DNA from: Sacculina carcini
Lineage: Eukaryota > Arthropoda > Thecostraca > Sacculinidae
Assembly (NCBI GenBank): GCA_916048095.2
Contig: OU696594.1
Coordinates: 530,001 to 594,000, forward strand
Direction of reading: 5' to 3'
Length of the DNA stretch: 64,000 nucleotides
The notes beneath the pieces are model-generated. The model had not been told where the DNA came from, did not search any database, and saw nothing but the letters and a program-made list of their open reading frames with translations. Every line of letters starts with the position of its first letter. The first letter of the stretch is position 1. Positions 6,835-60,756 of the stretch are shown here, one piece after another. The translations under genes and the position numbers were made by a program.

Positions 6835-8942
6835 TCTATATATATAAAAGAGATTCTCTGTGTGTGTGTGTGTGTGTGTGTGTCTGTGTGTTCACCATCC
6901 TTGGTCCATTTTCTATCAGCTAATACTTGGCCACCACTTAGCGTACCCGCTATAAATGTATACCATTATGTTGGAAATTTTCTTGTCTACACTTAACATT
7001 AAATTTTAAATTTTAAAAATAAAACCAAAAAAAGTTATTGCGGTGAAAAGACAAAATGAACCTTAAAAAATGCGAAAATTTTGGTCGATTTTTTGAAGAC
7101 TACTTCTCCTGAACCAGCAATGGTAAAACTATAAAAATTATACCACTGTGTATAAAATTTTATCTTTTACACAACGCATTTTAATTTATACCCAAAAATT
7201 GAATATAAAACATGTAAAATGAAAAAAATTCAATCTACATTCAAAATTTTATTTAAACTCCACGCGTCAAATTTTCTATACTTTTTCTCTATTTCTCAAA
7301 AAATAATTATCACACATCTAAATAAATAATACCATCATGCTGGGAATTTTCTTTTTTACAACACAGTATAATTTTTAATTTTACAGAGTGTATTAAAAAA
7401 AAGTTACGGCGGTGTGAAGTGTAAATGACAAAGTCAAAAAGGCAAAATTAACACACAAAAACGTGAATATTTTGGTCAATATTCCGCTATCTATTCTTCA
7501 TAAACCAGCAATGGTACAGCTATAAAAATTATACTATTGTGTAGATAATTTTGTGTTCTACAATAAAAGTTATAATTTATACCCACAAATGATACAAACG
7601 ACGTGTAAAATTGGCAAAATTCTCAAATAGATCCAAAATTTCACTTGAACACCGGGTGATTAAAACTAATTAATTTTTCTACTATTTTTCAGTAACTATT
7701 TGTCACACATTAAAATAAATTATACCATCGTGCTAGAAATTTTGTTTTCTACAATACGGTATAATTGTTAATTTTCCAAAGTGAACCTAAAGGAAGTCAC
7801 GGCGGTGTAAATTCAAAATGTCATGTTGCCAATTTGACAGCTATTATGCGCACTTGCGATTACACAGGAATATACAACTGTGTAAATAATTTTTTGTTCT
7901 ACAAGATAAGCTATAATTCATACCCACAAATGATACAAAAAACGTGTAAAATTGGCAAAATTCTCAAATACATCCAAAATTACACTTGAACACCGGGCGA
8001 CTAAAATTAATTAATTTTTCTACTATTTCTCAGTCACTATTCGTTATACATAGAAATAAATTATACCATCGTGCTAGAAATTTTGTTTTCTACAATACGG
8101 TATAATTTTTAATTTTCCAAAGTGTATCTGAAGGAAATTACGGCGGTGTAAATTCAAAAGGACATGTTGCCAATTTGACAGCTATTATGCGCACTTGCGA
8201 TTACACAGGAATATACAACTGTGTAGATAATTTTTTGTTCTACAAGAAAAGGTATAATTTATACCCACAAATGATACAAAAAAACGTGTAAAATTGGCAA
8301 AATTCTCAAATGCATCCAAAATTACACTTGAACACCGGGTGACTAAAATTTATTCATTTTTCTACCCATTTCTCAGGAACTGTTTGTCACACCTTAAAAT
8401 TAATTATACCATCGTGCTAGAAATTATTTTTTTACAATACGGTATAATTTTTAATTTTCCAAAGTGTATCTGAAGGAAGTTACGGCGGTGTAAAGTCAAA
8501 ATGTCATGTTGCCAATTTGACAGCTATTATGCGTACTTGCGATTACACATGAATATACACTGATTTAATTTCACTCAAGTCCAATCACAATTTACGCACT
8601 TACGATTACACAGGAATATACTACTGTGTAGAGAATTTTGTGTTCTACAAGATAAGCTATAATTTATACCCACAAATGTTACAAAAAACGTAGAAAATTG
8701 GCAAAATTCTCAAATACATCTAAAATTACACTTGAGCACCGGGCGACTAAAATTAATTCTTTTTTGTACTATTTCGCAGTAACTATTTGTAACACATAAA
8801 AATAAATTATACCATCGTGCTATAAATTTTATTTTCTACAATATGATATAATTTGTAATTTTCCAAAGTGTATCTGAAGGAAGTTACGGCGGTGTAAAGT
8901 TAAAAGCACATATTACCAATTTGACAGCTATTATGCGCACTT

Positions 8943-42445: not shown

Positions 42446-42590
42446 TGTTGTTGTTTATTGGATCATATTTATTGTCGTTGCTGTTTATTGAATCATATTT
42501 ATTGTTGTTGCTGTTTATTGAATCATATTTATTGTTGTTGCTGTTTATTGAATCATATTTATTGTTGTTGTTTATTGAATCATATTTTGG
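42446..42590. repeat. 30-bp minisatellite
   Basis: About 4.5 copies of a unit like CTGTTTATTGAATCATATTT plus ATTGTTGTTG, in the AT-rich tail beyond the LINE. Confidence 0.85.
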
Positions 42591-42692
42591 GCGCTTCCGG
42601 TACATGGGGCCACCTTAGGGTGGTAATAGTGCTTGCACTCTTCCCATGCTACTGGATTTGCCTGTAATTAATAATAATAATAATAATAATAT
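42588..42692 (+). mobile_element. LINE 3' tail module with (AAT)n, copy 1
   Basis: GGGCGCTTCCGGTACATGGG through GATTTGCCTGTAATTAATAA, ending in (TAA)n. Repeated almost exactly at 44,831-44,932. Confidence 0.75.
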
Positions 42693-43008: not shown

Positions 43009-44722
43009 CTAGCATCAAAACCCGTCCGTTGTGCGGAGCAGTTCATAACATGAAATTCATAAATATGGAAAAATAAAAATGAAATAGGGTACACTCATAA
43101 ATATATTCATCTATTGAAAATTATAAGTTTATTTATTTTTATTTCGACAAAATATTTCCCCTCAGTCCGCCTGAGTCATTTTTAACCCCGCCCGTCGATT
43201 AATTCTACAGGGTAAATTGAACGTTCTATTGTCTATAGTTGCTGCCCACGGAACATTTTTATTAAAAATTTCTAGCATTTCTAGCATTGTAGAACACAAA
43301 ATTCTCTACACAGTAGTATATTCCTGTGTAATCGCAAGTGCGTAAATTGTGATTGGACTTCAGTGAAATTAACTCAGTGTATATTCATGTGTAATCGCAA
43401 GTGCGCATAATAGCTGTCAAATTGGCAACATGACATTTTTACTTTACATCGCCGTAACTTCCTTTAGATACACTTTGGAAAATTCAAAATTATACCGTAT
43501 TGTAGAAAACAAAATTTCTAGCACGATGGTATAACTTATTTTCATGTATAACAAATAGTTACTGAGAAATAGTAGAAAAATTAATTAATTTTAGTCGCCC
43601 GGTGTTCAAGTGTAATTTTGGATGTATTTGAGAATTTTGCCAATTTTACACGTTTTTTGTATCATTTGTGGGTATGAATTATAGCTTATCTTGTAGAACA
43701 AAAAATTATCTACACAGTTGTATATTCCTGTGTAATCGCAAGTGCGCATAATAGCTGTCAAATTGGCAATATGTCCTTTTGACTTTACACCGCCGTGACC
43801 TCCTTTAGATACACTTTGGAAAATTACAAATTATACCGTATTGTAGAAAACAAAATTTCTAGCACGATGGTATAATTTATTTTTATGTATAACAAATAGT
43901 TACTGAGAAATATTAGAAAAATGAATTAATTTTAGTCGCCCGGTGTTCTAGTGTAATTTTGGATGTATTTGAGAATTTTGCCAATTTTACACGTTTTTTG
44001 TATCATTTGTGGGTATAAATTATAACTTATATTGTAGAAAACAAAATTCTCTACACAATAGTATAATTTTTATAGCTGTACCATTGCTGGTTTATGAGGA
44101 ATAGATAGCGGAATATTGACCAAAATATTCACGTTTTTTGTGCTAATTTTGCCTTTTTGCTTTTTTGTCATTTACACTTCACACCGCCGTAACTTTTGTT
44201 TAATACACTTTCGAAAATTAAAAATTATGCCGTGTTGTAGCAAACAAAATTTTCAGCATGATGGTATTATTTATTTAGATGTGTGATTATTAGTTTTTGA
44301 GAAAAAAGTATAGAAAATCGGACGCGTGGAGTTTAAATATAATTTTGAATGTAGATTGATTGTTTTCAATTTTACATGTTTTATATTTAATTTTTGGGTA
44401 TAAATTATAATTCGTTGAGTAAAAGAGAAAATTTTCTACACAGTGGTATAATTTTTATAGTTGTACCATTGCTGATTTAGGAGAAGTATTCTTCAGAAAA
44501 TTGACCAAAATTTTCGCATTTTTCAGGGTTCCTTTTGTCTTTTCACCGCTATAACTTTTTTTGGTTTCATTTTTGAAATTTAAAATTTAATCTAAAGTGT
44601 AGACAAGAAAATTTCCAACGTGATGGTATACATTTTTAGCAGGTAGGTTGAGTGGTGGCCGAATAATAGCTGATAGAAAATGGACCAAGGAGGGTCGAAC
44701 AGACACACAGACACACACACAG

Positions 44723-44754
<32 letters not shown>

Positions 44755-44775
44755 GATCTCTTTTATATATATAGA
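43009..44775 (-). mobile_element. Complete Helitron-like non-autonomous element
   Basis: On the minus strand it starts TCTATATATATAAAAGAG at 44,775, preceded by A. It ends with the hairpin CCGC-ACAACGG-ACGG type box, GGTTTTGATGCTAG at 43,009, followed by T. The 5'-TC, 3'-CTAG, near-terminal GC hairpin and insertion between A and T are all Helitron hallmarks. Length 1,767 bp. Inside are a TG tract, the shared head (GGTCCATTTTCTATCAGC) and degenerate ~340-bp tandem units (43,290-44,640). No Rep/helicase coding. Confidence 0.7.
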
Positions 44776-44830: not shown

Positions 44831-44932
44831 TTGGGCGCTTCCGGTACATGGGGCCACCTTAGGGTGGTAATAGTGCTTGCACTCTTCCCATGCTACTGGA
44901 TTTGCCTGTAATTAATAATAATAATAATAATA
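44831..44932 (+). mobile_element. LINE 3' tail module with (AAT)n, copy 2
   Basis: Direct copy of 42,588-42,692, lying on the other side of the Helitron-like element. Confidence 0.75.
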
Positions 44933-47289: not shown

Positions 47290-47640
47290 CTTGACAACAA
47301 CCTTGACAACAGTCTTCATCTCAATCTTGACAACAACCTTCATAACAACCTTGACAACAGTCTTCATCTCAATCTTGACAAAAACCTTCATAACAACCCT
47401 GACAACAGTCTTCATCTCAATCTTGACAACAACCTTCATAACAACCTTGACAACAGTCTTCATCTCAATCTTGACAACAACCTTCATAACAACCTTGACA
47501 ACAGTCTTCATCTCAATCTTGACAACAACCTTCATAACAACCTTGACAACAGTCTTGATCTCAATCTTGACAACAGTCTTCATCTCAATCTTGACAACAG
47601 TCTTGATCTCAATCTTGACAACAACCTTCATGACACCCTT
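47290..47640. repeat. 48-bp minisatellite open in both directions
   Basis: The unit CTTGACAACAGTCTTCATCT / CAATCTTGACAACAACCTTC / ATAACAAC recurs at 48-bp steps (47,311, 47,359, 47,407, 47,455, 47,503), then in 24-bp half-steps to 47,630. Because 48 is a multiple of 3, open frames cross it on both strands (16-residue repeats TTVFISILTTTFITTL on plus, VVVKIEMKT on minus). Confidence 0.9.
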
Positions 47641-47839
47641 GACTGCTCCTGAGCATGTTCTTCCTCTCTTAGCGATGCCAAATCTCGTTGTAGTTGTTTT
47701 TCTCAGTGAGCACGAGACAATAAGCGCAAAACACCACACTTTCACATGTTACAATTATTGATAACATAATAATAAGAAAATACATTCGAAATCACGAATA
47801 CTTTTTTAATTGCTTTGACCCAAATTTCAACAAGAACAG

Positions 47840-49930: not shown

Positions 49931-52900
49931 TACGAAAGTTGGCGAAGTTTTTTCCCTCAACACTGCTCAAGTTCACACCCATCCTTCGTGTGTAGTAATT
50001 CAGAAGTGTAATGCTATCAAAACAATGAAACTTTCTGTCATCTCTATAATCCCAGATTAATGCTTCCGCTAAAACAGCATATACATATAGTTGGCATTGC
50101 ATAGCATTACAACCTATATCCTTATGCAGCTTAAGCGTATGTAACTTGAAATTAAACCAATTAAATTACACAACAAAATTTAGTAGTTTACTTTCTTCCC
50201 AGTAGCTTTTTACCCGCCCGTCGTGCGAAACAGTTCATGTGTAAATATTGAGGACATAAAAGCCTTTCTATTCAGTATAGTGCAGCACTAATTAAACTGT
50301 GCGCAATAAAGCTACACCATCCATGCTTGGAGCTAATATGATGCATTCTTAATTGTGATTGGGCTTCAGTGAAAATTTATCAGTGTATACTCCTGTGTAA
50401 TCGCAAGTGCGCATAATAGCTGTCAAATTGGCAACATGTCCTTTTGACTTTACACCGCCTTAACTTCCTTTAGGTACACTTTGGGAAATTACAAATTATA
50501 CCGTATTGTAGAATACATATTTTTAGCACGTTGGTATAATTTATTTGGATGTGTAACGTACAGTTACTGAGAAATAGGCAGAAAAATGAGTTAATTTTAG
50601 TCGCACCGTGTTCAAGTGAAATTTTGGATGTAGATTTAATTTTGCCAATTTGACACGTTTTATAAATCATTTTTGGGTATACATTATGGCCTATCTTGTA
50701 GAACAAAAAAATTTCTACACAGTGATATGATATTTAAAGCTGTACTATTACTGGTTTATGACAAGTAGATAGCAGAATATTGACCAAAATATTCACGTTT
50801 TTCAGTGCAAATTTTGCCTTTTTGACTTTGTTATTTTGACTTCACACAGCCGTAACATTTTTAATTACACTTTGGAAAATTTAAAATTATACCGTGTTGT
50901 AGAAAAAAAAATTCACAGCATGATGGTATTACTTATTTAGATGTGTGATACTTATTTTTGGAGAAATAGAGATAAAAGTATAGAAAATCGGTCGCCGGAA
51001 GTTGAAATGAAATTATGAATGTAGATTGAAATTTTGTCATTTTTGCAGGTTTTATATTTCATTTTTGGTACAAATTGAAACCTATCTTTAGGATACCAGA
51101 CTATCTGCACGATGGTATAATTTGGATAGCTGTACTAATTATGGTTTATGAGAAGTAAATGGCAGAATATTAAACAAAATTTTCGCATTTTTCATGGTTC
51201 ATTTTGTCCTTTCACCACTATAACTGTTTTCGATTTTATTTTTAAAATTTAAAATATAAATTATCGTGTAGACAAAAAGATTTCAACATGATGATGTAAG
51301 TTTTTGGCGAGGACATCAAGTGGTTACCGAGTAGCGGCTGGCAGAAAATGGACCAAGGAGGATGGGACAGACAAACACACAGACCGACAGACAGACAGAG
51401 GATCTCTTCTATATATATATATATATATCTATATATATAAAAGAGATCCTCTGTGTGTGTGTGTGTGTCTGTGTGTGTGTTCGACCCTCCTTGGTCCATT
51501 TTCTATCAGCTATTATTCGGCCACCACTCAGCCTACCCGCTAACAATTTATACCATCACGTTGGAAATTTTCTTGTCTACACGTTAGATTAAATTTTAAA
51601 TTTCAAAAATGAAATCAAAAAAAGTTATAGCGGTGAAAAGACAAAATGAACCCTGAAAAATGCGAAAATTTTGGTCAATTTTCTGAAGACTACTCCTCCT
51701 AAACCAGCAATAGTACAACTATAAAAATTATACCACTGTGTAGAAAAAATTTTTTCTACTCAAAAAATTATAATTTATACCCAAAAATTAAATATAAAAC
51801 ATGTAAAATAGAAAACAATCAAACTACATTCAAAAATATATTTAAACTCCACGCGTCCGATTTTCTATACTTTTTTCTCTATTTGTCAAAAACTAATAAT
51901 CACACATCTAAATAAATAATACCATCATGCTGGGAATTTTGTTTGCTACATCACGGCATAATTTTTAATTTTCGAAAGTGTATTAAACAAAAGTTACGGC
52001 GGTGTGAAGTGTAAATGACAAAAAAGCAAAAAGGCAAAATTAGCACAAAAAACGTGAATATTTTGGTCAATATTCCGCTATCTATTCCTCATAAACCAGC
52101 AATGGTACAGCTATAAAAATTATACTATTGTGTAGATAATTTTGTGTTCTACAAGAAAAGTTATAATCTATACCCACAAATGATACAAAAAACGTGTACA
52201 ATTGGCAAAATTCTCAAATACATCCAAAATTACACTTGAACACCGGGTGATTAAAATTAATTCATTTTTCTACCCATTTCTCAGGAACTATTTGTCACAA
52301 ATTACAATAAATTATACCATCGTGCTAGAAATTTTGTTTTCTACAATACGGTATAATTTTTAATTTTCCAAAGTGTATCTGAAGGAAGTTACGGCGGTGT
52401 AAATTCAAAAGGACATATTGCCAATTTGACAGCTATTATGCGCACTTGCGATTTCACAGGAATATACTACTGTGTAGATAATTTTGTGTTCTACAAGAAA
52501 AGTTATAATTTATACCCACAAATGATACAAAAACCGTGTCTGAACTGTTTGTCACACATTAAAATAAATTATACCATCGTACTAGAAATTTTGTTTTCTA
52601 CAATGCGGTATGCTTTTTAATTTTCCAAAGTGTATCTAAAGGAAGTTACGGCGGTGTAAAGTCAAAAGGACATATTGCCAATTTGACAGCTATTATGCGC
52701 ACTTGCGATTACACAGGAATATACTACTGTGTAGATAATTTTGTGTTCTACAAGATAAGTTATAATTTATACCCACAAATGATACAAAAAACGAGTAAAA
52801 TTGGCAAAATTCGCAAATACATCCAAAATTACACTTGAACAACGGGCGACTAAAATTAATACATTTTTCTACTATTTATCAGTAACTATTTGTTATACAC

Positions 52901-53840
52901 AAAAATAAATTATACCATCGTGCTAGAAATTTTGTTTTCTACAATACGGTATAATTTTTAATTTTCCAAAGTGTATCTAAAGGAAGTTACGGCGATGTAA
53001 AGTCAAAATGTCATGTTGCCAATTTGACAGCTATTATGCGCACTTGCGATTACACAGGAATATACTACTGTGTAGATAATTTTGGGTTCTACAAGATAAG
53101 CTATAATTTATACCCACAAATGATACAAAAAACGTGTAAAATTGGCAAAATTCTCAAATACATCCAAAATTACACTTGAACACCGGGCGACTAAAATTAA
53201 TTTATTTTTCTAATATTTCCCAGTAACTATTTGTTATACATGAAAATAAATTATACCATCGTGCTAGAAATCTTGTTTTCTACAATACGGTATACTTTGT
53301 AATTTTCCAAAGGGTATCTGAAGGAAGTTACGGCGGTGTAAAGTCAAAAGGATATATTGCCAATTTGACAGCTATTATGCGCACTTGCGATTACACAGGA
53401 ATATACACCGATTAAATTTCACTGAAGCCCAATCACAATTAAGAATGCATCATATGATCTCCAAGCATGGATGGTGTGGTTTTTTTGCGTACAGTTTAAT
53501 TAATGCTACACTATACTGAATAGAAAGTCTTTATTGTCCTCAATATTTACACATCAAATGTTCCGCACGACGGGCGGGTAAAATGCTACTTGGAACAAAG
53601 TAAGCTACTGAATTTTACTGTGTAATTTAATTGGTTTAATTTCAAGTTGCATACGCTTAAGTTGCATAAGGATACGGGTTGTAATATCATACAATGCCAA
53701 GTATATGCATATGCTGTTTTAGAGGAAGCATTAATCTGGAATTATAGAGATGTTTCATTGTTTTGATAGTGTTACACCTCTGAATTACTACACACGAAGG
53801 ACGGGTGTGAATTTGAGTAGTGTTGAGGGAAAAACATCGT
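49930..53840. repeat. Large palindrome of Helitron-like arms
   Basis: Left arm (minus) 49,930-51,415; right arm (plus) 51,429-53,840; centre (TA)n at 51,410-51,435. Both arms run from the centre through GATCTCTT/AAGAGATCC, a TG tract, GGTCCATTTTCTATCAGC-type head and ~340-bp units. An arm end with a box and CATCCATGCTTGGAG follows. The right arm has more ~340-bp units. Confidence 0.8.
51429..53840 (+). mobile_element. Helitron-like element, plus arm
   Basis: 5' end TCTATATATATAAAAGAG at 51,429. The ~340-bp units show landmark GCCAATTTGACAGCTATTATG at about 52,420, 52,678, 53,019 and 53,360. No CTAG end was found; GGCGGGTAAAATGCTAC at 53,574 is the closest. Confidence 0.6.
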
Positions 53841-55200: not shown

Positions 55201-56500
55201 GCATTTTTTCATCTACAACACGGTATAATTTTTAATTTTCCAAAGTGTATTAAAAAAAAGTTACGGCGGTGTGAAGTCAAAATGACAAAGTCAAAAATGC
55301 AAAATTAGCACTGGAAACCGTGAATGTTTTGGTAAATATTCCCCTATCTATTCCTCATAAACCAGCAATGGTACAGCTATAAAAATTATACTATTGTGTA
55401 GATAATTTTGTGTTCTACAAGAAAAGTTATAATTTATACCCACAAATGATACAAAAAATGTGTAAAATTGGCAAAATTGTCAAATACATCCAAAATTACA
55501 CTTGATCACCGGGCGCCTAAATTAATTCATTTTTCTACCTATTTCTCAGGAACTATTTGTCACACATTGAAATAAATTATATCATCGTGCTGGAAATTGT
55601 ATTTTTTAAAATGCGGTATAATTCTTAATTTTCCAAAGTGTATCTGAAGGAAGTGACGGCGGTGTAAAGTCAAAAGGACATATTGCCAATTTGACAGCTA
55701 TTATGCGCACTTGCGATTACACAGGAATATACTACTGTGTAGAAAATTTTGTGTTCTACAAGAAAAGGTGTAATTTATACCCACAAATGATACAAAAAAC
55801 GTGTAAAATTGGCAAAATTCTCAAATACATCCAAAATTACACTTGAACACCGGGTGACTACAATTTATTCATTTTTATACCCATTTCTCAGGAACTATTT
55901 GTCATACATTAAAATTAATTATACCATCGTGCTAGAAATTTTGTTTCCTACAGTACGGTATAATTATTAATTTTCCAAAGTGTATCTGAAGGAAAATACG
56001 CCGGTGTAAAGTCAAAATGTCATGTTGCCAATTTGACAGCTATTATGCGTACTTGCGATTACACATGAATATACACTGATTAAATTTCACTGAAGTCCAA
56101 TCACAATTTACGCACTTGCGATTACACAGGAATATACTACTGTGTAGAGAATTTTGTGTTCTACAAGATAAGCTATAATTTATACCCACAAATGATACAA
56201 AAAACGTGTAAAATTGGCAAAATTCTCAAATACATCCAAAATTACACTTGAACACCGGGCGACTAAAATTAATTCATTTTTCTACTATTCCTCAGTAACT
56301 ATTTGTTACACATAAAAATAAATTATACCATCGTTCTAGAAATCTTTTCTTCTACAATACGGTATAATTTGTAATTTTCCAAAGGGTATCTGAAGGAAGT
56401 TACGGCGGTGTAAAGTCAAAAGGACATATTGCCAATTTGACAGCTATTATGCGCACTTGCGATTACACAGGAATATACACCGATTAAATTTCACTGAAGC
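55200..56500 (+). repeat. Helitron-like ~340-bp tandem units, partial array
   Basis: Landmarks GCCAATTTGACAGCTATTATG at ~55,686, 56,028 and 56,431; the head (TCTATATATATAAAAG) is missing. It ends in the same arm-end sequence (CACCGATTAAATTTCACTGA) as 53,410. Confidence 0.65.
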
Positions 56501-58380
56501 CCAATCACAATTAAGAATGCATCATATTATCTCCAAGCATGGATGGTGTGGTTTTATTGCGTACAGTTTAATTAATGCTACACTCTACTGAATATAAAGG
56601 CTTTATTGTCCTCAATAACGTTCCGCACGACGGGCGGGTAAAATGCTATTGGGAACAAAGTAAACTACTGAATTTAACTGTGTAATTTAATTGGTTTAAT
56701 TTCAAGTTGCATAAGCATAAGTTGCATAAGGATATGGGCTGCAATATCATGTAATGCCAACTTATGCTGTTTTAGCGGAAGCATTAACCTGGAATTATAG
56801 AGATGACAGAAGGTTGCATTGTTTTGATAGTGTTGTGGAAAAACATGTTTTCTAAATTGAAACATAAATTTCACATTTAGACTTTTAGATTAGCTATAAC
56901 TTTCCTGTGGGTTTGTTTTTCTTTTTCAATTTGCACTAATTTTTTTATGAATTGAATATTAATTATATTTTATGAACTGTTCCGCACGACGGGCGAATTA
57001 AATGTATCTATAAAGAGTGGGTTTAAATGATAGCGAGGTATATGATATTTTGCTAGCAGTAAATATTCTAGCGATAAAAGTAGAATAGCTCTTAAGCAAA
57101 TGATTTTGGAGAATGATGTGAACCTTTGAATATATTTTGCGATCTGATGATATATGTATTAGGAATAATACGTAGCAGAATATAGATTGCATAATATAAT
57201 ATCGGCTGTAATATCAAGGGCTGCATTATCGATGTAATCCAAAAAATAACAACTGTATGGATATGATGCATTAGTGGAAGCATTAACCGGGAATTATGAG
57301 ATAATATGATAATGGTGTAAAATTATATCGCATTATGCAACAAATGTGAATTTAGCTACCTTACAGTTTGGTCCCGATACTATATTGGCGGGTTGAGAGA
57401 AAAGTATTGGTGGGCCGCGTGTTTGGGACCCCTGGGGTAGATAATCTCAGTCTTCTGATTACAAATTATGATCGCATCAGTATATTTTGTGATCACAAAC
57501 TAATAAGTTAAATCACCTCAGACTAGGCTGAGAGCGGTCAAGATTGAATGGTTGGGTTGGGTTGGGTAGGTTTGACTCAGGTTATATTGGGTTTTAATGA
57601 TAGCGGAAAATATATAAATTTTAACAATAAATATTATAGCGGTAAAAGTGAAATAGTACTTAAGCAAATGATATTGGGGAATGATGTTAAGTAATAAATA
57701 TAGTTTGGAAACAGTCTGATGAAAAGATTTCATCATCTTTCATTGTTTGTTTCGTGTTTGTGTTCTGAATTATACCACACGACGGGCGGATTTATATATC
57801 AGGCGGGTTGAGGGATAATATTTGTCAAAATAAGAACAAAAATATTCACATTTAGACTTTTCTATTGGTTAAGATATTTATAGGTTACATTTTTTGCTTT
57901 TCAATTTGTATTCATTATATTTTATGGATTTGATATGAATTTTATTGTATGAATTGTTCCGCACGACGGGTGGGTTTAAAAAAGTGTTTTTAGATCATTT
58001 TTTCTAATGGTTCATTTAAAAAAAGGTTTTTTTTTTTAAATAAAAATGATCCGCGGGCAGCAACTATAGACAATAGAACGCTCAATTTCCCCTGTAGAAT
58101 TAATCCATACACAAACCAATGGATTTTACTTCAAGATCCAGAACGGATCGTGTTCGAGCTCTGAATTATTCAACACGACGGGCGGGTTTAAAAATGACTC
58201 AGGCGGACTGAAGGAAAATATGTTGTCGAAATAAAAATAATTAAACTTATAATTTTCAATTGATAAATATTTTTATGAGTGTACCCTATTTCATTTTTAT
58301 TTTTCCATATTTTTTATGAATTGAATATGAATTTCATGTTATGAATTGCTCCGCACAACGGGCGGGTATTAATGCCATAT
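56500..58380 (+). repeat. Box satellite, plus orientation, second copy
   Basis: Arm end plus boxes at ~56,624, 56,983, 57,774, 57,957, 58,172 and 58,351. 56,822-58,032 duplicates 53,960-55,170. Confidence 0.6.
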
Positions 58381-60727
58381 ATATACATAAAGAAGAAATT
58401 ATCTGTCTGTCTGTGTATGTATGCTTGAATATGAGGTGACATAATTGCGCGGGTTCAATGGTATAGATCAGGGGCTTAATTGTTCCGCACGACGGGCGGG
58501 TAAAATTCTACTGGGAACAAAGTAAACTACTGAATTATTGTACCATATAGAACCATTAAATAAAAAACCATTATTATATAATGAAGAACCATTTGAATAT
58601 TAGTTAGTTAGTTGTCATTAGTTGGTTTATATATAAAGAACCATTGGTGTTGGGGCTTAATTGTTCCGCACGATGGGCGGGTTTAAATATGAGGCTGTTC
58701 GAGGGAAAATGTTAAATGTTTTGCTTTTTAATTTGTATTCAGTTTATTTTATGGATTGAATATGCATTTTATTTTATGGATTGAATATGAATTTTATTTT
58801 ATAAATTGTTCAGCACGACGGGCGGGTTTAAATATGAGACGGGCTGAAGGAAAATATGTTGTCAAAAATATAATTGAATTTAGACTTTTCAATTGAGTAA
58901 GATTTTAATGAGTATATCTGTTTTCTTTATTAATTTGCAATATGTTTATGAATTAAATATGAATTTCATCTTATGAATTGCTCCGCACAACTGGCGGGTT
59001 TCAATGCTAGATGGTGATATTAAGCTATTAAAATATTTTGGAAACATTATGATGAAGATGTGTAGCCATTTTTCATTGTTTCGTGTCTGAGTTCTGAATT
59101 ATTCAGCACGACGGGCATGTATAAATATGAGGCGGTTTAGGCAAACTATTTTGTGAAAATAAATATGAAAATATAGAAATTTAGACTTTTGTATGGGTTT
59201 ACTCCATTCTTTTTTAATTCATAATCCTTTTCTCTCATGAATTGAATACAAATTTAATAGTATGAACTGTTTCGCACGACGGGCGGGCTTACATGCTAGG
59301 ATTTTCATTGTTTGTTACGTGTTTGTGTTCTGAATTATTCCGCACAATGGGCTGGTTTATATATGAGGCGGGTTGAGGGAAAATATTATGTCAAAATAAA
59401 AAAAATTATTCACACTTGGACTTTTCTATTGAGTAAGACACTGATGAGTTTTCATTTTCTTTTTTAATTTGGAATATTTTATGAATATGAATTATTATGA
59501 ATATTAATTCCATTTTATGAATTCCTCCCCACAACGGGCGGGTTTTAATGCTAGTATATACATAAAGAAGAAATTATCTGTCTGTCTGTGTATGTATGCT
59601 TGAATATGAGGTGACATAATTGCGCGGGTTCAATGGTATAGATCAGGGGCTTAATTGTTCCGCACGACGGGCGGGTAAAATTCTACTGGGAACAAAGTAA
59701 ACTACTGAATTATTGTACCATATAGAACCATTAAATAAAAAACCATTATTATATAATAAAGAACCATTTGAATATTAGTTAGTTAGTTGTCATTAGTTGT
59801 TTTATATATAAAGAACCATTGGTGTTGGGGCTTAATTGTTCCGCACGATGGGCGGGTTTAAATATGAGGCTGTTCGAGGGAAAATGTTAAATGTTTTGCT
59901 TTTTAATTTGTATTCAGTTTATTTTATGGATTGAATATGCATTTTATTTTATGGATTGAATATGCATTTTATTTTATAAATTGTTCAGCACGACGGGCGG
60001 GTTTAAATATGAGACGGGCTGAAGGAAAATGTGTTGTCAAAAATATAATTGAATTTAGACTTTTCAATTGAGTAAGATTTTAATGAGTATATCTGTTTTC
60101 TTTTTTAATTTGCAATATGTTTATGAATTAAATATGAATTTCATCTTATGAATTGCTCCGCACAACTGGCGGGTTTCAATGCTAGATGGTGATATTAAGC
60201 TATTAAAATATTTTGGAAACATTATGATGAAGAAGTGTAGCCATTTTTCATTGTTTCGTGTCTGAGTTCTGAATTATTCAGCACGACGGGCATGTATAAA
60301 TATGAGGCGGTTTAGGCAAACTATTTTGTGAAAATAAATATGAAAATATAGAAATTTAGACTTTTGTATGGGTTTACTCCATTCTTTTTTAATTCATATT
60401 CCTTTTCTCTCATGAATTGAATACAAATTTAATAGTATGAACTGTTTCGCACGACGGGCGGGCTTACATGCTAGGATTTTCATTGTTTGTTACGTGTTTG
60501 TGTTCTGAATTATTCCGCACAATGGGTTGGTTTATATATGAGGCGGGTTGAGGGAAAATATTATGTAAAAAAAAAAAAAATATTCACACTTGGACTTTTC
60601 TATTGAGTAAGACACTGATGAGTTTTCATTTTCTTTTTTAATTTGGAATATTTTATGAATATGAATTATTATGAATATTAATTCCATTTTATGAATTCCT
60701 CCCCACAACGGGCGGGTTTTAATGCTA
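58380..60727 (+). mobile_element. Head-to-tail dimer of a Helitron-like element
   Basis: Unit 1, 58,380-59,554 (1,175 bp), and unit 2, 59,555-60,727 (1,173 bp), are nearly identical. Each starts TATATACATAAAGAAGAAAT and ends GGGCGGGTTTTAATGCTAG; the first CTAG (59,551-59,554) joins the second start directly. Each unit has about nine boxes. No coding. Confidence 0.75.
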
Positions 60728-60756
60728 GTATATATATATATACATATAATATATAC

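Follow-up and report, generated by a model that had tools for sequence, protein, structure and literature searches.

A non-autonomous CTAG-type Helitron with internal 341-bp tandem units in the genome of Sacculina carcini

As outlined in an excerpt of PMC4067079, HINE/DINE-1 elements are derivatives of Helentrons that have subterminal inverted repeats (subTIRs), insert into T-rich targets and have ends in common with coding elements. Helraiser of bats displays a 5' TC, a 3' CTAG and a preference for AT targets, and its circles contain a precise TC-CTAG join; a role in signalling termination is ascribed to its hairpin (PMC4778049, in extract). Helitrons of the TC...CTAG type in the Pacific oyster likewise have a 5' TC, a 3' CTAG and an upstream palindrome, and are inserted mostly between A and T (excerpt of PMC7992393). 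Tandem Helitron insertions are mentioned for bat, fly, rice and maize in the available part of PMC5148889. The element described here was found at positions 43009-44775 (1,767 bp) of a window, i.e., the whole 64-kb stretch of DNA analysed, corresponding to C35:530001-594000 of a 264-Mb genome. It resembles both Helraiser and the oyster TC...CTAG Helitrons in its 5' TC, its 3' CTAG and its target, and the oyster elements also in an upstream palindrome. We put at roughly 0.93 the probability that it is a canonical (TC...CTAG, A^T) non-autonomous Helitron, served by RepHel protein from coding Helitrons of the same genome, that it is a short derivative of longer members of its family, and that it carries and scatters 341-bp units.

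The window sequence places the Helitron ends at 44775 (5') and 43009 (3'), so that the element lies on the minus strand, where it reads A, TCTATATATATAAAAGAGATCC ... GGGTTTTGATGCTAG, T. The 5' end, TCTATATATATAAAAGAGATCC, starts at 44775 and is preceded by the host base A (44776, the right half of the empty site), and the 3' end, GATGCTAG, stops at 43009 and is followed by the host base T (43008, the left half of the empty site). The original prediction had drawn the element to exactly these coordinates and had read both ends as TC...CTAG with A/T flanks, which is borne out, but on the minus strand. From the 5' side, the minus-strand element comprises a 30-bp terminus, TCTATATATATAAAAGAGATCCTCTGTGTG (44746-44775), identical to the first 30 bp of a second element at locus L026 and with genome copies of its first 22 bases; a TG/CA microsatellite just inside the 5' end (44699-44751, detected by TRF); a diverged repeat unit (44166-44450); two full 341-bp units (43725-44065, found by TRF and used as the BLAST query, and 43384-43724); and a 282-bp 3' module (43009-43290). 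This module is also found elsewhere in the genome, with at least 70 matches when 40 of 716 first-look candidates were scored. It includes a subterminal imperfect GC palindrome, CTCCGCACAACGGACGGG (43021-43038), recognized by position and conservation, and the terminal CTAG (43009-43012), supported by the sequence and by genome pattern matches. TRF reported a period of 341 at 43378-44065 (2.0 copies, 93% matches) and a looser period of 385 at 43782-44523 (75% matches), and BLAST with the unit at 43725-44065 returned one further full unit (93.3% identity) and one diverged unit (74%) within the element, i.e., two full units and one diverged, and no long array. No open reading frame (ORF) of 200 aa or more, from start to stop, overlaps 43009-44775, and an Rfam search of the 64-kb window at gathering thresholds gave no match. 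The interior holds tandem units of ~340 bp, as had been proposed, and no large ORF. Elsewhere in the window, further satellite-bearing copies lie at 6835-8942, 50351-51421, 51428-53440 and 55203-56512, the copies near 51421 (minus) and 51428 (plus) being arranged head to head, with a few bases separating the two 5' ends, and TRF found a 48-bp tandem repeat at 47296-47643 (7.2 copies, 94% matches).

The element is inserted in an interspersed repeat, and the sites without it could therefore be compared with the occupied one. The junction pattern of the joined flanks was found at nine paralogous uninterrupted sites elsewhere in the genome, of which seven equal the joined flanks in length, including two (on C3 and C21) that are identical to them in sequence, while one of the remaining two is 4 bases shorter and the other 1 base longer. 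None of the nine shows a target duplication. In addition, when the two 250-base flanks were joined into a 500-base query and 40 of 1,676 first-look candidates were scored, at least 42 rows aligned across the junction, the alignments covering roughly the first 400 bases; most of these rows exceed the query in length by 4-7 bases within the aligned stretch, and they do not overlap with the nine pattern-matched sites. The second insertion, a 5,313-bp span in L026, is located in another repeat. Here, the joined junction is spanned by at least 38 rows, of which 34 extend over the full 400 bases and most are one base shorter than the query (40 of 63 candidates scored), and GACGTA runs uninterrupted into TACAGG in six of six exact-pattern places. 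Two insertions thus show clean A^T insertion without target duplication at base resolution, as expected of the original prediction's A/T insertion. Beside the element, a 24-base sequence is present in exact form on both sides (42588-42611 and 44832-44855), and (AAT)n stretches next to it could mark the 3' part of a non-LTR retrotransposon.

Copies of both termini are abundant. The first 22 bases of the 5' terminus, with at most one mismatch, gave 2,821 genome matches and a 27-base pattern of the 3' terminus gave 5,191, against none for either reversed-pattern control, so the terminal patterns are more frequent than by chance. Among the exact 5' ends listed on C1 up to 7.04 Mb, a 3' end no more than 8 kb away lies on the same strand for 40 of 51 and on the opposite strand for 6 of 51, and these pairing counts, like the unit offsets below, come from exact matches listed for C1 only. 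The base preceding the 5' TC was read in 26 cases from the fetched loci and the window, near-duplicate and hence not all independent loci among them, and was A in 16 and the G of an abutting CTAG in 10. Paired exact ends and flanking bases agree with the expectation that copies start and stop at the same two bases as the element itself.

Most of the complete spans fetched for the family are longer. A 5' end was present in 19 of 20 loci fetched by place. The usual layout begins with the 5' module and a diverged unit, continues with two to five full units and then ~0.5-2.8 kb of other sequence, and closes with at least one stretch resembling the 3' module. Measured from a 5' end as far as the following CTAG hairpin, 13 spans were delimited: the 1,767 bp of the present element, one of 2.9 kb, ten of 3.5-5.7 kb and one of 7.6 kb, five of the 13 stopping at a CTAG followed by A, possibly an internal end. 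The element had been called full, which holds for its two ends, both complete, but not for its length, as 10 of the 13 pattern-found spans reach 3.5-5.7 kb. On C1, 5'-to-3' distances of ~3.6 and ~4.6 kb recur. In the present element and in C31:642944-644723, the units directly adjoin the 3' module, and both therefore look like internal-deletion forms. Stop-to-stop ORFs of at least 80 aa were listed for two loci: L010, with a 5.6-kb span, has two (90 and 96 aa), and L015 has 13, the longest of 152 aa.

Many copies are joined head to tail. Exact CTAG-TC joins account for 8 of the 51 exact 5' ends listed on C1 and for the 10 abutting cases among the 26 in the fetched set, of which eight have the family's TTRATGCTAG and two, at the near-duplicate loci L020 and L024, a different CTAG. 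Two exact head-to-tail joins are also present in a Rep-coding family described below. Such pairs could be products of a single rolling-circle concatemer instead of successive insertions, and the exactness of the joins, the same TC-CTAG join in Helraiser circles (PMC4778049, in extract) and the duplication at 99.1% identity of a 1,175-bp unit in another family would all fit this origin. However, identity over up to 700 bases was 87.3, 95.4, 95.8 and 90.6% in four abutting pairs, compared with a median of 93.3% for 379 copy pairs (near-duplicate loci included). Because abutting copies are as divergent as copies in general, insertion one after another at the A^TC edge is favoured, and a concatemer is considered unlikely for this side question. 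The 1,175-bp unit, which belongs to another hairpin-CTAG family and is duplicated head to tail at ~58379-60728 with its boundary at CTAG, may be different in origin from the other joins. It could be speculated, though we are doubtful, that the family makes its own tandem repeats: new copies would go on inserting at the A^TC left edge of older ones, 3' ends that are weak or altered (CTAT for CTAG) would be bypassed, and the joined products would move as longer composites with several internal 3' ends. If so, the members of 3.5-5.7 kb, with their serial 3' modules, would represent stages of this build-up, and the 341-bp units would have arisen from it earlier.

The 3' end was predicted to contain a GC hairpin near the terminus. 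The palindromic stretch is indeed conserved in both position and sequence among 3' ends, but its folding energy is unremarkable: the 3' end of the element, folded at two lengths, did not stand out from shuffled sequences (z = -0.29 and -0.87), and neither did the corresponding 3' end in L017 (z = -0.63). In the fetched sequences, the base following the hairpin and CTAG was T in 32, A in 8 and G in 2 of 42 matches, and with a looser pattern T in 33, A in 16 and G in 5 of 54, i.e., A or G in 21 of 54, where many of the cases followed by A or G represent a few recurrent sequences. Hairpin-CTAG ends followed by A or G are probably internal, bypassed ends of longer elements. Across L009-L058 and the window, 42 and 6 of 103 hairpins carry CTAT or CCAT, respectively, in place of CTAG. 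In 14 and 5 of these, ATATATACATAA follows, as would be expected if a decayed 5' end lay directly behind a bypassed 3' end; 14 other CTAT/CCAT hairpins are followed by CTATAAAGAGTG, which does not fit such an arrangement.

Candidate sources of transposition proteins are encoded in the same genome. PF14214 gave 150 genome matches, the longest open frame among them having 1,834 codons. Of three ORFs scanned, those at L042 and L031 contain Helitron_like_N and the start of PIF1, the PIF1 match being above the curated cut-off of 25.9 bits in L042 (30.6) and just below it in L031 (24.1), with the helicase signal confined to the ends of these two fetched ORFs. For the L031 ORF, Helraiser was the sole PDB match at E ≤ 0.001 (E = 2.1e-181 over ~1,040 residues). 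A Rep-coding family was delimited by a 3' end, CATTCTTCCGC[A/G]CAACGGGCGGGTTTTAATGCTAG, found exactly in 32 places in the genome, and a 5' start, TCTATAATAATAAAAACGTTATTCTG, found in 142 places with at most two mismatches. A Rep domain lies within 8 kb upstream of 14 of the 32 3' ends on the same strand and of none on the opposite strand, and within 8 kb downstream in two cases, one on each strand. Downstream of the 5' ends, a Rep domain follows in 29 of 90 on the same strand and in 2 on the opposite strand, and both Rep and a 3' end follow in 10. These counts use 89 of the 150 PF14214 rows, the 61 others consisting of a weak cluster of 28 on C35 (3.3-4.5 Mb) and mostly of short pieces near kept rows, and 90 of the 100 Rep-type 5' ends listed out of 142, ten two-mismatch rows being set aside.

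The last 30 bp of the Rep-coding family, as read in L058, match the L026 element at 30 of 30 positions and the present element at 27 of 30, while its first 30 bp match the latter at 22 of 30 and differ at 8. Judged by these alignments, coding relatives with nearly the same 3' end are present in the genome. The expected Rep/helicase element sharing both ends was thus recovered in part, with 27 of 30 bp at the 3' end, but with 22 of 30 at the 5' end and with no intact partner having the element's own ends. Four RepHel loci on C1 (L034, L041, L053 and L054) were not found beside exact copies of these ends: upstream, 11.8-21 kb separate them from the nearest exact same-strand 5' end, and downstream, the three loci below 7.04 Mb are 27-68 kb from the nearest 3' end, the locus at 8.6 Mb having been tested for a 5' end only. 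L058 was considered as an element of the satellite-bearing family whose own ends enclose a Rep gene and was rejected, as the Rep-bearing Helitron is nested there and has its own 5' end. It spans 2,332 bp (L058:508-2839; C7:4915110-4917441) within a satellite-bearing copy. When the flanks of this nested Helitron are joined, they agree with the copy in L009, which is uninterrupted, at 105 of 119 aligned positions, with one gap away from the junction, and provide a further empty site.

The layout of the element had been likened to HINE/DINE-1, and a HINE/DINE-1-like element moved by a Helentron would account for the central tandem repeats and for the microsatellite inside the 5' end, both of which belong to the HINE layout in the excerpt of PMC7492417. 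The likeness does not extend to membership. No subTIRs of ~11-15 bp were found between the first 30 and the last 100 bases, where the longest exact inverted match is 6 bases, a length reached by 356 of 500 shuffles. The 3' end is CTAG, and the flanks and the two empty sites show an A^T target, not the T-rich or TT target of HINE/DINE-1. This origin is therefore regarded as very improbable, and the canonical reading is preferred, as the element combines a 5' TC, a 3' CTAG and A^T insertion without target duplication.

The 341-bp unit was followed across the genome with a 32-base piece, which gave 7,478 matches and none for the reversed control. Among the 100 exact matches listed on C1, 59 follow an exact same-strand 5' end at a distance of no more than 4 kb, compared with one that has an exact opposite-strand 5' end within this distance, and the offsets from the 5' end fall in clusters around 1085-1130, 1465-1530 and 1783-1809 bases. 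These 100 matches form 63 groups, the largest of five, and include no long free-standing arrays of the unit. The unit is better described as a tandem repeat internal to the element than as a free satellite. The name satellite, given to it in the original prediction, is generous for groups of at most five among the 100 matches listed on C1; the idea that the repeat is dispersed together with the element gains support from the fixed offsets and from empty sites that lack both units and ends. That ordinary satellite DNA came by chance to be flanked by Helitron-like ends, with the repeat outside the mobile unit, would suit its abundance and the 41 of 100 listed matches with no exact 5' end within 4 kb, but is hardly credible given those fixed offsets in the orientation of the 5' end and those empty sites.

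A mechanism can be proposed around the features observed, i.e., the termini, the target, the lack of duplication in two insertions, the copy number, the fixed place of the repeat, the RepHel genes and the 3' bases in common with the Rep-coding family. RepHel protein from coding Helitrons of the same genome would act on the element, nicking it at the 5' TC, peeling off one strand and stopping near the 3' CTAG, and the strand copy would then be joined into an A^T site. With the 341-bp units inside the element, each transposition would scatter short repeat arrays. The element itself would be a short derivative of longer members, having lost the ~0.5-2.8 kb that separates their units from the first 3' module. 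Insertion of new copies at the A^TC left edge of older ones would give the exact CTAG-TC joins, an order of events suggested by the identities of abutting copies. The accepted picture of Helitrons is unchanged by this, while the occurrence of empty sites, head-to-tail joins and Rep-coding relatives in one assembly offers a natural setting well suited to testing how rolling-circle transposons generate and spread satellite-like DNA.

Finally, the element can be placed among known systems. Unlike it, Helraiser is a coding element, and the extract of its description (PMC4778049) makes no mention of a tandem-repeat interior. The oyster TC...CTAG Helitrons average 1,092 bp, some have subTIRs and no coding elements are reported for them in the excerpt of PMC7992393. 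The tandem repeats are part of the element in C. elegans Helitrons with satellites as well, but the units there are ~15-40 nt and six complete coding elements are described (PMC9918286, in part). Like the DINE-1/HINE elements of flies, mites and mosquitoes, some copies of which carry tandem repeats, the element is non-coding; those elements differ in having subTIRs, a T-rich target and a Helentron partner (excerpt of PMC4067079). A close resemblance is seen to Cg_HINE of the Pacific oyster, which is also non-autonomous, with a microsatellite near the left end, central satellite-like units, a 3' palindrome and dispersed short arrays. However, the Cg_HINE elements are Helentron derivatives with subTIRs, oligo-T sites and commonest monomers of 140-180 bp (both points from the excerpt of PMC7492417), whereas the present element has CTAG, an A^T target, no subTIRs and a 341-bp unit. 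Non-autonomous rolling-circle elements that carry satellite-like units are thus a kind already known from other animals, to which this genome adds a canonical CTAG-type Helitron, and not Helentron-type HINEs alone, as a carrier spreading a tandem unit of several hundred bases in thousands of copies.
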